Positions 32,473-36,466 of a DNA stretch of 41,970 bases are shown here, piece by piece. This DNA is from Wenjunlia vitaminophila DSM 41686 (GTDB lineage Bacteria > Actinomycetota > Actinomycetes > Streptomycetales > Streptomycetaceae). The DNA lies in assembly GCF_000380165.1 (NCBI RefSeq), contig NZ_KB904686.1, positions 1 to 41,970 of the forward strand, in the 5' to 3' direction. The position numbers were made by a program, and so were the translations under genes. The notes under the pieces were generated by a model. That model saw nothing but the letters and a program-made list of their open reading frames with translations, did no database searches and was not told where the DNA came from. Position 1 is the stretch's first letter. The number at the start of each line of letters is the position of its first letter.

Positions 32473-32832
32473 CACGTACCGCTGTCCGGGGCGTCGCCCC
32501 CTCCGGGTCGCCGGCGGGAGGGCGGTGCCCCGGACGCATCAGGCAGACGCGCACACGGGATCGGGCGGGGCCACCGGGGGATCGGCCCCGCCCGACGCAT
32601 CGCCCCCGAAGTCACCGCGTCCTGTCCGCGTCCGGGGCGCGACGGGCAGGCGCCGCCGTCACCGCCGCGGCTCCGTTGACCGCTGCCGCTGACCGCTGAC
32701 CGCTGACCGCTGCCCGGTCCCGTCCCTCGGTACGAGCCTGACGCCGGCGGATGAGAACAGGGTGAACCCCGCGTGAGAACCTCGCTGGAAACCGCCCGTC
32801 GCCCGCCACGGCGGTCCTGGAGCCCCACGGGC
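32473..32832. other. Intergenic region with GACCGCT tandem repeats
   Basis: 360 bases between convergent genes. At 32677-32713 the 7-base unit GACCGCT is repeated four times, partly broken. The segment 32500-32600 has long GC-rich palindromic words typical of a terminator, but I could not place one clean stem. No gene seen. Confidence 0.45.
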
Positions 32833-33228
32833 TCAGACCCCGGCGGCCAGGACGGCGAGGGCGGCGTCCAGGCGTGCGGTGGCCTCGTCGGCGACCGGCT
32901 GGAGGGCGGACAGGCCGGTGAGGGTGACCATGGTGGTCGGGTCGAGGACCTGGACGAGGGTGCTGTCGCCGTCCCGCCGCACGATGACGTTGCAGGGCAG
33001 CAGGAGGCCGATGGTGCGGTCGGCTTCGATGGCCCGTTGGGCGAGCAGCGGGTTGCAGGCGCCGAGGATCAGGTACTCCTCCATGTCGTGACCGAGTTTG
33101 GCGCGCAGCACGGCCCGTACGTCGATCTCCGTCAGGACGCCGAACCCCTGGTCGGCCAGGGCCCGCCGTGCGGCGGCGACGGCGGTGTCGAAGTCGGCGT
33201 CGAGGCGGACGGTGCGGTGGTAGGACAC
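32833..33228 (-). CDS. DUF302 family protein
   Basis: 131 residues with the DUF302 signature: ALADQGFGVLTEIDVRAVLRAKLG, YLILGACNPLLAQRAIEAD and IGLLLPCNVIVRRDGD. The family is a small alpha/beta fold of unknown function that often lies next to sulfur or metal handling genes, as here. The two Cys (LGACNP, LLPCNV) are a family feature. GTG 33228 has GGGAG upstream. It is divergent from the MBL-rhodanese gene across a 153-base promoter region with a CsoR/CstR-like operator, so it is probably co-regulated with it. Confidence 0.9.
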   Translation of the reverse strand: MSYHRTVRLDADFDTAVAAARRALADQGFGVLTEIDVRAVLRAKLGHDMEEYLILGACNPLLAQRAIEADRTIGLLLPCNVIVRRDGDSTLVQVLDPTTMVTLTGLSALQPVADEATARLDAALAVLAAGV

Positions 33229-33344
33229 GCTGGGCTCCCGGGTCAGTCGCAGGGGCTGGGTACCCGCATAGGGGGAGACGATGCCGGGTTGGCACCACTC
33301 CCTGAGACACCCCCCGCGGTACCTGCTGTTAGGGTGCCGAATGA

Positions 33345-33360
33345 ATACCCCAGGGGGTAA
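33345..33360. promoter_or_regulatory. CsoR/CstR-type operator, first copy
   Basis: ATACCC-CAGG-GGGTAA; the inner TACCCCAGGGGGTA is a perfect palindrome. CsoR-family repressors bind G-tract palindromes flanked by A/T. A near-identical site precedes the rhodanese-DUF2892 gene at 35845. The site is 22 bases before the MBL start, whose ribosome site AAGGAG is at 33368-33373. Confidence 0.7.
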
Positions 33361-33381
33361 CCTGCCTAAGGAGTCGCAGTC

Positions 33382-34791
33382 GTGTTCTTCATCGACACCC
33401 TGGAGTTGGAAGGGCTGGGGAACCGCAGCTACCTGGCCGGGGGACCGCGCCTCGCGGTGGCGGTCGACCCACCACGGGACATCGACCAGGTCCTGACGGC
33501 CGCCGCCCGCCGGGGAGTGCGGATCAGCCACGTCGTCGAGACCCACGTGCACAACGACTACATCACCGGGGGTCCGGAACTGGCCCGCGTCGTCGGTGCT
33601 CACTACCTCGTGCCGGCCGGTGCGTCGGTGACCTTCCCGTGCGTTCGGGTCGCGGACGGCGACACCGTCTCCGTTGACCAGCGCCTCGCGCTGCGGGCGA
33701 TCGCCACCCCCGGGCACACTCCGCACCACACCTCCTACGTCCTCGAGGAGGACGACAGGGGAGTGGCGGCCTTCACCGGTGGCTCGCTGCTGATCGGCGC
33801 GGTGGGGCGTCCCGACCTGGTCGAACCGCGGCTCACCGAGCAGCTCGCCCGCGCCCAGCACGCCTCGGCCCACCGGCTGGCCGAGGAACTGGACGACGAG
33901 GTCCCGGTGCTGCCCACCCACGGCTTCGGCAGTTTCTGCTCCAGCTCGCAGGCGGAGGGCGACGCCACCACGATCGGCGCGGAACGGCGGAACAACGACG
34001 CGCTGACCAAGGACGCGGACACCTTCGTCGCCGAACTGCTCGCCGGACTGGACGACGTCCCCGCCTACTACGCGTACATGGCACCGGCCAACGCGGCCGG
34101 CCCCACCCCGGTGGACCTCACCCCGCCCCGGCGGGCGGACGCGGAGGAGATCGCCTCCCGGCTCGCGGCCGGCGAGTGGGTGGTGGACCTGCGCAACCGG
34201 CTCGCGTTCGCCGACGGGCACGTCGCCGGGACGTTCAACGTCGAGGGCGAGGGGAAACTGGCCACCTACCTCGCGTGGCTGATCCCCTGGGGCAAGCCCG
34301 TCACCCTGCTCGCCGACACCCCCGAGCAGGTCGCGGGCGCCCAGCGGGAGCTGGCCCGGGTGGGCATCGACCGCCCGGCCGCGGCCGCCACCGGCGACCC
34401 CGCCACCTGGGTACGGGAGGGCGAACCACTCGCCTCCTTCCGCCGCGCCACCTTCGCCGACCTGGCCGCGGCCGGACGGCGCGACGGCGACATCGTCGTC
34501 CTCGACGTGCGGCGCGACTCCGAACGCGCCGGCGGCTTCGTCGAGGGCTCGGTGCACGTCCCGATCCACCAACTCCCCCGCGCCCTCGGCGAGGTGCCGC
34601 CGGGAGTGGTCTGGGTGCACTGCACCACTGGCATGCGCGCGACGATCGGCGCGTCCCTGCTGGACGCCTCCGGACGTGAGGTCGTCGCCATCGATGACGA
34701 GTTCGACGCCGCCGTCGCCGCAGGGCTCGTCCGCTCCGACCGCGACGGCGGGCCGGAGAACCCCACCCCCAAGGCTTCCCCGCGAAGGTGA
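33382..34791 (+). CDS. MBL-fold persulfide dioxygenase-like protein with two rhodanese domains
   Basis: 469 residues. The metallo-beta-lactamase part (1-235) carries ETHVHNDYITGG (His55, His57, Asp59), ATPGHTPHHT (His112) and PTHGFGSFC (His180). The usual final His of HxHxDH is Tyr60, as I recall for this MBL-rhodanese subfamily. A first rhodanese domain (about 253-345) has no active-site Cys; the second (about 352-458) has it in HCTTGMRA (Cys414). The likely role is oxidising glutathione- or mycothiol-type persulfides and moving sulfane sulfur. The start is GTG 33382, nine bases from AAGGAG. Its TGA overlaps the next start (GTGA). The operator upstream suggests persulfide-responsive control. 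Confidence 0.9.
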   Translation: MFFIDTLELEGLGNRSYLAGGPRLAVAVDPPRDIDQVLTAAARRGVRISHVVETHVHNDYITGGPELARVVGAHYLVPAGASVTFPCVRVADGDTVSVDQRLALRAIATPGHTPHHTSYVLEEDDRGVAAFTGGSLLIGAVGRPDLVEPRLTEQLARAQHASAHRLAEELDDEVPVLPTHGFGSFCSSSQAEGDATTIGAERRNNDALTKDADTFVAELLAGLDDVPAYYAYMAPANAAGPTPVDLTPPRRADAEEIASRLAAGEWVVDLRNRLAFADGHVAGTFNVEGEGKLATYLAWLIPWGKPVTLLADTPEQVAGAQRELARVGIDRPAAAATGDPATWVREGEPLASFRRATFADLAAAGRRDGDIVVLDVRRDSERAGGFVEGSVHVPIHQLPRALGEVPPGVVWVHCTTGMRATIGASLLDASGREVVAIDDEFDAAVAAGLVRSDRDGGPENPTPKASPRR

Positions 34792-35027
34792 TCAAACCGA
34801 TGCTCCTCCGTCGCGGCCGGGCGCGCCTCAGCCCGGCACAGGCTCACCAACGTGCCTCCCACGGGCAGGCCGTCCTGCTCGACGTCCGCGAGGCCACCGG
34901 GCGTGCCGGCCAACGCGCGCCCGGCGGCCTCCACCCGCCGCCGAGCCGCCGGCTGGCCGGCGCGCCCCCACCGCTGGCCGCTCGGGCCCGGGCGGCCACG
35001 CCGGTCACCGGTGGGGTCACCGGGTGA
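34788..35027 (+). CDS. Internally shrunken rhodanese-like protein, active-site Cys absent
   Basis: 79 residues that begin and end like a rhodanese: LSPAQAHQRASHGQAVLLDVRE at the N-terminus and PVTGGVTG at the C-terminus. The middle (APGGLHPPPSRRLAGAPPP) is a distorted form of the GHxPGAxHxPLxxL segment, and the Cys loop is missing altogether. Yet the start GTG at 34788 overlaps the MBL stop in GTGA, and its own stop overlaps the exporter start at 35024 in another GTGA. The coupled reading frame is therefore intact at both ends although the fold cannot be complete. Either a relic kept for translational coupling or a small protein with another task. Confidence 0.55.
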   Translation: MIKPMLLRRGRARLSPAQAHQRASHGQAVLLDVREATGRAGQRAPGGLHPPPSRRLAGAPPPLAARARAATPVTGGVTG

Positions 35028-35776
35028 CCGCGCTGGTCCTCGCCCTGGTCGCCGGTGCCGTGGTGGGCCTGGCGCTCGGCGGTCTCGGCGGAGGAGGCAG
35101 CGTCCTGGCCGTGCCCGCGCTGATCTACCTGCTCGACTTCACCCCGGCCGCGGCGACCACCGCGAGCCTCCTGATCGTCACCGTCACCTCCGCCACCGCC
35201 CTGTCCGCGTACGGCAGGGCCGGACACGTCCGCTGGAAGGCCGGCGGGCTCTTCGCCGCGGCCGGCCTGCTGCCCGCCGCGGCTGCCGGGGCCGCCGCGG
35301 CCCGGCTCCCCCAGGCGGCGCTGACCATCGCCTTCGCCGCCTTCGCCGCCCTCGCGGCGATCCGGATGCTGCGGCCCCGTGGGGCGCTCGCCGGGCGGGG
35401 AGCCGCGGAGGTCCACCCGGCCAAGGCCGCAGCCGTCGGCGCCGGCCTCGGAGTGGTGACCGGGTTGCTCGGCGTCGGCGGGGGCTTCCTGGCCGTCCCC
35501 GCCCTGGTCACCGTGCTGGCCTTCGACATGCAGGCCGCCATCGGCACCAGTCTGCTGGTGATCACGGCCAACTCACTGGCCTCCCTCAGCACCCGGGGCG
35601 CCACCTTCTCCGGACTCGACTGGTCGGTGATCGCTCCGTTCGCCGCGGCGGCGATCCTGGCCGCCTGGGACGGGAAACGCCTGGCCAGCAAGGTCTCCGG
35701 GGCCCTGCTCCAGCGGGTCTTCGGGGGCACGCTGCTGGCCGTCGCCGCCTTCATGCTCGTTGACACCCTGGTGTGA
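35024..35776 (+). CDS. TauE/SafE (TSUP) family sulfite/thiosulfate-type exporter
   Basis: 250 residues, almost entirely hydrophobic: about eight membrane helices in two related halves. Each half has the family glycine motif, LALGGLGGGGSVLAVPALIYLL and VTGLLGVGGGFLAVPALVTVL. TSUP proteins carry sulfur oxyanions or organosulfonates; in persulfide-detoxification loci they export sulfite formed by the dioxygenase. GTG 35024 overlaps the preceding stop by four bases. The context (MBL-rhodanese, rhodanese) makes sulfite export the likely job. About 120 bases separate it from the next rhodanese gene, which has its own operator. Confidence 0.9.
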   Translation: MTALVLALVAGAVVGLALGGLGGGGSVLAVPALIYLLDFTPAAATTASLLIVTVTSATALSAYGRAGHVRWKAGGLFAAAGLLPAAAAGAAAARLPQAALTIAFAAFAALAAIRMLRPRGALAGRGAAEVHPAKAAAVGAGLGVVTGLLGVGGGFLAVPALVTVLAFDMQAAIGTSLLVITANSLASLSTRGATFSGLDWSVIAPFAAAAILAAWDGKRLASKVSGALLQRVFGGTLLAVAAFMLVDTLV

Positions 35777-35844
35777 CCGGCCACGGGCCCCCGCCCTCCG
35801 CCCGGTGCGGTAACAGCACCAGCAGTTCCCCCACCCTGTCACTC

Positions 35845-35860
35845 ATACCCCGCTGGGTAT
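35845..35860. promoter_or_regulatory. CsoR/CstR-type operator, second copy
   Basis: ATACCC-CGCT-GGGTAT, a perfect 6+6 inverted repeat with the same 4-base spacer as the site at 33345. It is 40 bases before the rhodanese start and overlaps TATCCT (35858-35863), a possible -10, so repression by occlusion is plausible. Confidence 0.75.
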
Positions 35861-35899
35861 CCTGGTCGGAGGGGGTACCCGAGACAGAACGGAAAATGC

Positions 35900-36466
35900 A
35901 TGGCCGCCACCACTTCCCTCGTTCCGGAGCAGGCGCACGCCCGCCTCCACGAACTGACCATCATCGATGTCCGCACCCCCGGTGAGTACGCCTCCGGGCA
36001 CCTCCCCGGTGCCCACAACGTCCCCCTGGACCACCTCGAGGCGGCGCTTCCCGCGCTGAGGGCCGCTGCCGCCCGCGGCGACCTCCTCGTCGTGTGCGCC
36101 TCAGGCGGCCGTTCCGCCCAGGCGTGCGAACGCCTCACCGGGGACGGCGTACCCGCCGCCACCCTGGTGGGCGGCACCCAGGCGTGGACCCAGCTCGGAC
36201 ACGACCTCCACCGCCCGGCGGGCTCCCGCGCGCCCTGGGCCATGGAACGCCAGGTCCGCTTCGCCGCCGGCTCCCTCGTCCTGACCGGGCTCGTCGCAGG
36301 ACTGCGCTGGCCGAAGACCCGCCTGCTGTCCGCGGGGGTCGCCGGCGGGCTCGTCTTCTCCGCCCTCACCAACACCTGCGGCATGGCCCACCTCCTGGCC
36401 AAGCTCCCGCACAACCGGCCGCGCGCCACCGACCTCGACGCCACCCTCGCCGCTCTCGCCGGCTGA
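35900..36466 (+). CDS. Rhodanese domain fused to DUF2892 membrane segment
   Basis: 188 residues. The rhodanese domain (about 8-105) has TIIDVRTPGEYASGHLPGAHN and the active loop CASGGRSA (Cys66). Two short hydrophobic helices follow (about 120-165, FAAGSLVLTGLVAGL and SAGVAGGLVFSAL), then NTCGMAHLLAKLPHNR, the DUF2892 (YgaP-type) ending. Such proteins bring sulfurtransferase activity to the inner membrane. ATG 35900 has GGAAAA upstream; transcription probably begins at the operator-containing promoter. The extra Cys in NTCG is typical. It ends facing the ABC exporter across a strong terminator. Confidence 0.9.
   Translation: MAATTSLVPEQAHARLHELTIIDVRTPGEYASGHLPGAHNVPLDHLEAALPALRAAAARGDLLVVCASGGRSAQACERLTGDGVPAATLVGGTQAWTQLGHDLHRPAGSRAPWAMERQVRFAAGSLVLTGLVAGLRWPKTRLLSAGVAGGLVFSALTNTCGMAHLLAKLPHNRPRATDLDATLAALAG

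Follow-up and report, generated by a model that had tools for sequence, protein, structure and literature searches.

In Staphylococcus aureus, the persulfide-sensing CsoR paralogue CstR governs rhodanese, persulfide dioxygenase (PDO; CstB) and TauE-type genes, and the regulator of this cst operon lies adjacent to its targets. A similar circuit, ScCsoR-ScPDO-TauE-Rhod, has been described in Streptomyces coelicolor (PMC7533328), in which a CsoR-like regulator with two Cys residues recognises the 16-bp sequence ATACCn6GGTAT; two such sites occur in the PDO promoter and one is common to the regulator and rhodanese genes. The present study concerns a locus of this kind in Wenjunlia vitaminophila DSM 41686, carried on a stretch of 41,970 nucleotides, hereafter the window, which is the entire contig C52 (NZ_KB904686.1) of a 6.43 Mb draft genome in 111 contigs. 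The window resembles both systems in its genes, since PDO-like, TauE and rhodanese genes stand under the 16-bp operator as in S. coelicolor; unlike the S. aureus operon, it has no regulator gene adjacent to these targets. We consider it highly probable that the locus is a CstR-type island for sulfane-sulfur disposal whose embedded repressor has been lost or moved, and that the CstR encoded on another contig, C3, most likely acts on it in trans.

The gene content and the operators of the island were largely anticipated by a preliminary description made from the sequence alone, and the domain matches bear it out. The plus strand encodes a PDO-like protein of 469 amino acids with metallo-beta-lactamase and rhodanese domains (33382..34791; PF00753 and PF00581), a TauE/SafE sulfite exporter (35024..35776; PF01925, E 8.7e-43), and a rhodanese with a YgaP-like (DUF2892-type) membrane domain, here called rhodanese-TM (35900..36466; PF00581 and PF11127). 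The two sites of the form ATACCC-N4-GGGTAW named in that description are both present, as exact matches on the plus strand: the proximal PDO operator ATACCCCAGGGGGTAA at 33345..33360, found at the same place in relatives, and the rhodanese-TM operator ATACCCCGCTGGGTAT at 35845..35860, which in relatives is common to CstR and rhodanese-TM. The genome-wide scan that the description had proposed returned five sites in the whole genome and none of the reversed pattern; two are in the window, two at a second island on contig C24, and one before the CstR-type gene on C3. Under a first-order model of the window composition, the exact site is expected 0.0003 times per window and 0.05 times per genome-sized sequence. 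When up to two mismatches were allowed, the number of strand-matches in the window was four, all of them at these two sites, where 1.14 would be expected; nine of 100 shuffles reached four, so that only the exact form of the motif is significant. The two window sites are thus real and far above chance. It is hardly conceivable that the palindrome is unrelated or arose by chance, because five copies were seen, all at sulfur genes or CstR, where 0.05 were expected, and because the sites are conserved in place across relatives; in favour of such a reading, five of 11 family genomes with the motif and no CstR were inspected, and in those five the motif lies away from recognisable sulfur genes.

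The genome holds two PF02583 genes, on C69 and C3, which agrees with the earlier statement that the window has no CsoR/CstR gene. The listing of CsoR-family genes, also proposed beforehand as a check, yielded one copper-type gene (C69) and one CstR-type gene, on the minus strand of C3 (C3:181537-181815; PF02583, E 1.3e-22, over the cut-off). An exact N4 operator, meaning one with a four-base spacer, stands at C3:181835, 19 bp upstream of the start of the C3 gene, and this gap is the commonest one in relatives (33 of 77). Counted from the chosen GTG start, the protein has Cys37, Gly62 and Cys66, a set found in all 121 CstR loci examined (our own included, with three genomes counted twice); the Gly occupies the position of the His of copper CsoR, and the Cys-His-Cys copper site is absent. 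The same two residues, Cys37 and Cys66, occur in ScCsoR of S. coelicolor, which has been shown to bind ATACCn6GGTAT and to let go of it in the presence of polysulfide (PMC7533328). Since the C3 protein combines the Cys/Gly signature with its own N4 operator, it is the one clear candidate for the regulator, with binding predicted. On the grounds of residues and operators, we regard it as settled that a matching regulator exists and that its predicted class is CstR (persulfide-type) and not copper CsoR. The earlier suggestion of a CsoR/CstR-class regulator acting from elsewhere is thereby supported, and sharpened to CstR by the sole CstR-type gene bearing the same N4 operator.

The copper paralogue on C69, as the main regulator of the window sites or as one sharing them, is a very unlikely alternative. 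It belongs to the same fold family, with the same half-sites, and the sites of the S. lividans CsoR, which prefers ATACCC-N5-GGGTAT-like sequences, are only one base pair longer in the spacer (PMC3902906). The Cys-His-Cys signature of copper CsoR is present in the C69 protein, and N5 sites stand upstream of its own gene (C69:11811) and before a heavy-metal/copper P-type ATPase gene on C51, as well as near a gene of the major facilitator superfamily (MFS) on C1. The same division holds in relatives, for which 80 named loci, the best 80 of 255, were compared (three of them also belong to another set of loci). The 250 bp preceding the CstR-type gene contain an N4 core in 77 of the 80 loci and an N5 core in none. 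Of 13 His-type CsoR genes (the His was seen in 12 and then in the thirteenth, L244), eight have an N5 core in the surrounding 3.2-kb locus and none has an N4 core, though five of the 13 lack an N5 core too. In addition, G001, a sister genome with neither CstR nor N4 sites, carries a His-type CsoR that has an N5 site nearby. Both the spacer and the residues therefore disfavour the copper CsoR as the regulator. A spacing effect has a parallel in TTHA1953 of Thermus thermophilus, in which a one-base change of spacing lowered affinity by about 10-15 fold, as we read the report (PMC10318464). N4 versus N5 may serve as a simple rule to tell persulfide from copper operators in the CsoR family.

The layout of relatives suggests what may have happened to the local regulator. 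Of the 80 named loci, 42 have CstR flanked by TauE on one side and, on the other, by a divergent rhodanese-TM gene that shares the CstR operator. A PDO is present in the fetched stretch of 68 loci, 27 of which have CstR placed otherwise, and seven of the 80 have neither a PDO nor a neighbouring rhodanese-TM at that place. The window keeps the same gene order without CstR: where the convergent CstR gene stands in those 42 relatives, only a 68-bp spacer (35777..35844) separates TauE from the rhodanese-TM operator. The preliminary description had called the island one without its regulator, which is correct as to the missing local gene; relative to most close relatives, this looks like a loss or move and not like a design of its own. 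Most simply, the local CstR copy would have been lost and the gene moved or duplicated.

A comparison of close PDO genes gave a consistent picture. Relatives of the window PDO-like protein with 70-81% identity occur in 40 other genomes, at a total of 42 further places. Counting only places with at least 70% identity (43 of the 54 listed, with eight candidates scored per genome), in 41 genomes including our own, CstR was found within 6 kb at 34 places, elsewhere in the genome at six, and nowhere at three. The TACCC-N4-GGGTA core was present at the PDO promoter in all six places with CstR elsewhere (in one of which CstR is 11.4 kb off on the same contig, and in whose six genomes the listed motif matches equal the total match count) and in none of the three without CstR. 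One of these three has a two-mismatch version of the core, and one of the three, G006, has a further CsoR-family gene, L245, of neither type, with Tyr at the His/Gly position. These data bear on the proposal that the window operators are relics, the island having become constitutive or subject to another regulator after its local repressor was lost. The decayed distal PDO and DUF302 operators, described below, and a truncated middle rhodanese would fit such a history; two exact 12-base palindromic sites persist in the window, together with the site of CstR itself, and no core is left in the three relatives that have a close PDO without CstR (the two-mismatch version and L245 being noted), which makes the relic proposal very unlikely.

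Within the PDO promoter of the window there is one exact operator and a decayed distal one, ACACCCCCCGCGGTAC (33307..33322, plus strand), with three mismatches to ATACCC-N4-GGGTAT. This distal element, absent from the preliminary description, lies 38 bp upstream of the exact proximal site, its register matching that of the distal operator in relatives, and is the sole three-mismatch match in the scanned stretch (about 32801-36000). For comparison, identical or truncated promoters of relatives were dropped, and the alignment by eye took in a small number of incomplete loci, cut at the locus end. Among 76 distinct PDO promoters, two exact N4 cores occur in 61, three in one, one in 11 and none in three; the commonest spacing, 37 bp, is found in 43 of the 62 promoters having at least two. 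Between the operators, all 62 carry TGTTA/TGCTA or a close variant, as judged by a permissive pattern, and the window has TAGGGT (33330..33335, plus strand), a probable -10 element whose position matches that of relatives.

On the divergent side of this region, GGGTACCC at 33258..33265 reads, in alignment by eye with relatives, as the one half-site left of a DUF302 operator. Among 25 distinct DUF302 upstream stretches, six contain a complete N4 core, at 38-43 bp from the start, ten have only a GTACCC/GGGTAC half, and nine have neither. A second copy of GGGTACCC lies at 35873-35880, and a further GGGTA occurs in 17 of 62 distinct rhodanese-TM promoters, showing that the 35873 element is not conserved. 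Of the two half-sites suggested earlier (placed at 33259 and 35875), both sequences are thus present and the first falls where some relatives have a DUF302 operator; the second was rejected as a half-site because it is unconserved. The S. lividans CsoR showed no detectable binding to a half-site (PMC3902906).

Based on this evidence, a regulatory cycle can be proposed for the C3 CstR. In its reduced form, the repressor would occupy the N4 operators at the PDO and rhodanese-TM promoters of the window, at the C24 island and at its own promoter. Persulfide or polysulfide would then modify Cys37/Cys66, the repressor would leave the DNA, and the PDO-like enzyme, TauE and rhodanese would be made. 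Sulfane sulfur would be oxidised and the product, presumably sulfite, exported, until newly made reduced CstR shut the genes again.

Across the family, the regulator and its operator travel together. Among 200 family genomes, 96 have both CstR and the exact site, 16 have CstR only, 11 have the site only and 77 have neither, with the reversed pattern in five. Several points weigh against trans control of the window by CstR. The association (Fisher p 7e-27) is uncorrected for kinship; the 16 genomes without the exact motif are a part of 112 CstR-bearing genomes; and the CstR loci L098 and L118 of G112 and G004 lack any N4 core, which speaks against strict coupling. The C3 contig ends 276 bp past the operator in a draft genome of many contigs. 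Deletion of the S. coelicolor repressor raised Scpdo mRNA 100- to 480-fold (PMC7533328), and with its distal PDO operator decayed, the window may be repressed more weakly or loosely than that system. Finally, the Asp of the TGD motif is replaced by Gly134 in the window protein, which is why we call it PDO-like, its activity not being assured.

The surroundings of the C3 gene bear on how the repressor may have come to lie there. The distance from operator to gene and the ribosome-binding region of this copy are both typical; CTACC, recognised by eye, follows beyond the operator as in relatives, and the copy looks as if it had once faced a rhodanese-TM gene. From the look of the sequence, its present neighbours are what we take to be an acetyltransferase gene and the end of an M23-type peptidase gene. 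None of the other CstR loci searched has these neighbours, and no common insertion site was therefore seen; no transposase was recognised among the open reading frames (ORFs) listed beside the gene, by eye only and without a family search. Transfer is possible, since related CstR modules occur on Streptomyces plasmids (of 510 records with any match, seven reach 80-90% identity, and three were inspected). In the CstR tree (93 amino acids), our protein falls in an unresolved comb, a position compatible with vertical descent as well as with acquisition of the C3 gene. In G044, a CstR fragment lies beside the PDO (L255 5276-5437) and intact CstR copies occur elsewhere, an apparent intermediate of local regulator decay.

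Concerning the enzyme, the PDO-like protein aligns along its length with 3tp9 and 3r2u and has the metallo-beta-lactamase and rhodanese domains and the His positions of a type III persulfide dioxygenase. H55, H57, D59 and H112, which we take to have an iron-ligand role, are all present in the window protein, and 91 of 92 aligned relatives share them, the remaining one being unaligned there. Gly134 is likewise found in 91 of 92 relatives (the other unaligned there), and 3tp9, 3r2u and the ETHE1-like 8zbd have Asp, presumably the third iron ligand, at that position. The whole PDO-like subfamily may be without the third iron ligand. In a partial PDO tree, from a search that was unfinished, the window protein branches beside a group of 64 rows as its sister, with support of 92 above. 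Persulfide oxidation by the window protein is thus no more than plausible. ScPDO of S. coelicolor has been shown to be active (PMC7533328).

A DUF302 gene of 131 amino acids (32833..33228, minus strand; PF03625, E 4.9e-22) is divergent from the PDO gene and has an equivalent divergent position in several relatives; a literature search for DUF302 together with rhodanese gave nothing useful on its function. A 79-amino-acid ORF (34788..35027, plus strand) overlaps the PDO-like and TauE genes and had no match in a Pfam search. It is a truncated rhodanese without the Cys loop, with N-terminal similarity to the full rhodanese at the equivalent place in L090, L135 and L187, which have CRSGHRS. In L093, L128 and L157, a scripted ORF pick gave a longest ORF at this position that is not a full rhodanese.

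The second island, on C24, has genes for a rhodanese (59775-60110), for another PDO-type protein, which keeps the TGD motif (about 60248-61633), for a rhodanese-TM protein and for a TauE relative (39% identity). Its exact N4 sites, at 59494 and 59697, precede these genes. At 56 bp past the latter site comes a third one with a single mismatch, ATACCTAGGGGGGTAT (C24:59753-59768); the 56-bp spacing recurs between operators of PDO2-type islands in G012, G047, G100 and G102. The site at 59494 also faces an MFS transporter gene (57709-59286, start about 59286). A similar MFS gene in a region of G047 (C26) with CstR and several N4 sites (L267) makes this transporter a candidate regulon member. The single-contig genome G012 has one CstR-type and one copper-type CsoR, with N4 sites at PDO2-type islands 0.13 and 1.8 Mb from CstR, and because of this layout, action at a distance is not peculiar to our genome.

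Other possible targets of CstR were observed at N4 operators in relatives, namely between DUF302 and pyridine-nucleotide-disulfide oxidoreductase genes in G012 (L262:1671-3675) and upstream of a thioredoxin gene in G047 (L267:14680-15096). Two CstR-type genes, about 60% identical to our own, stand tail to tail beside a PDO2-type gene in L119 (G107) and L121 (G139).

These findings carry implications for how such regulons are recognised. The target set of a regulator can be read from its operators even when the regulator is not adjacent, and the window offers a natural test of whether a cluster stays controlled after its own repressor gene is gone. A broader picture, which we hold to be doubtful, is that one remote persulfide sensor serves a three-locus regulon with two PDO types; that selection keeps the operator and not the neighbouring gene, local repressors coming and going and N4 sites persisting while any CstR remains in the genome; that the one-base spacer separates this regulon from that of the copper CsoR; and that the window PDO-like protein may differ in chemistry from the TGD-keeping C24 enzyme. 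The homologous Streptomyces circuit affects actinorhodin production and sporulation (PMC7533328).

Compared with known systems, separation of regulator and targets has precedents. TTHA1953 of T. thermophilus is also a CsoR-family sulfur regulator, reported to lie far from the genes it controls, with an affinity affected by inverted-repeat spacing; it differs in its operator, TACNNTACNNNNGTANNGTA, and in governing a Sox regulon (PMC10318464). The copper CsoR of S. lividans shares the family and the half-sites, with operators that serve its own gene as well as remote copZA operons, and it differs in the N5 spacer, the His ligand and the copper genes under its control (PMC3902906). Among PDO-bearing genomes, the regulator was found within three ORFs in 773 of 1248, which implies separation in the rest (PMC7533328). 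In the closest system, that of S. coelicolor, the regulator adjoins the PDO gene (PMC7533328); the present genome departs from it in encoding the regulator on a separate contig, in the decay of the distal PDO operator, and in having the same operators at a second PDO island. Since adjacency of the regulator was looked for in the window and CstR was found on C3, the window circuit is a rearranged variant of the known Streptomyces-type circuit.

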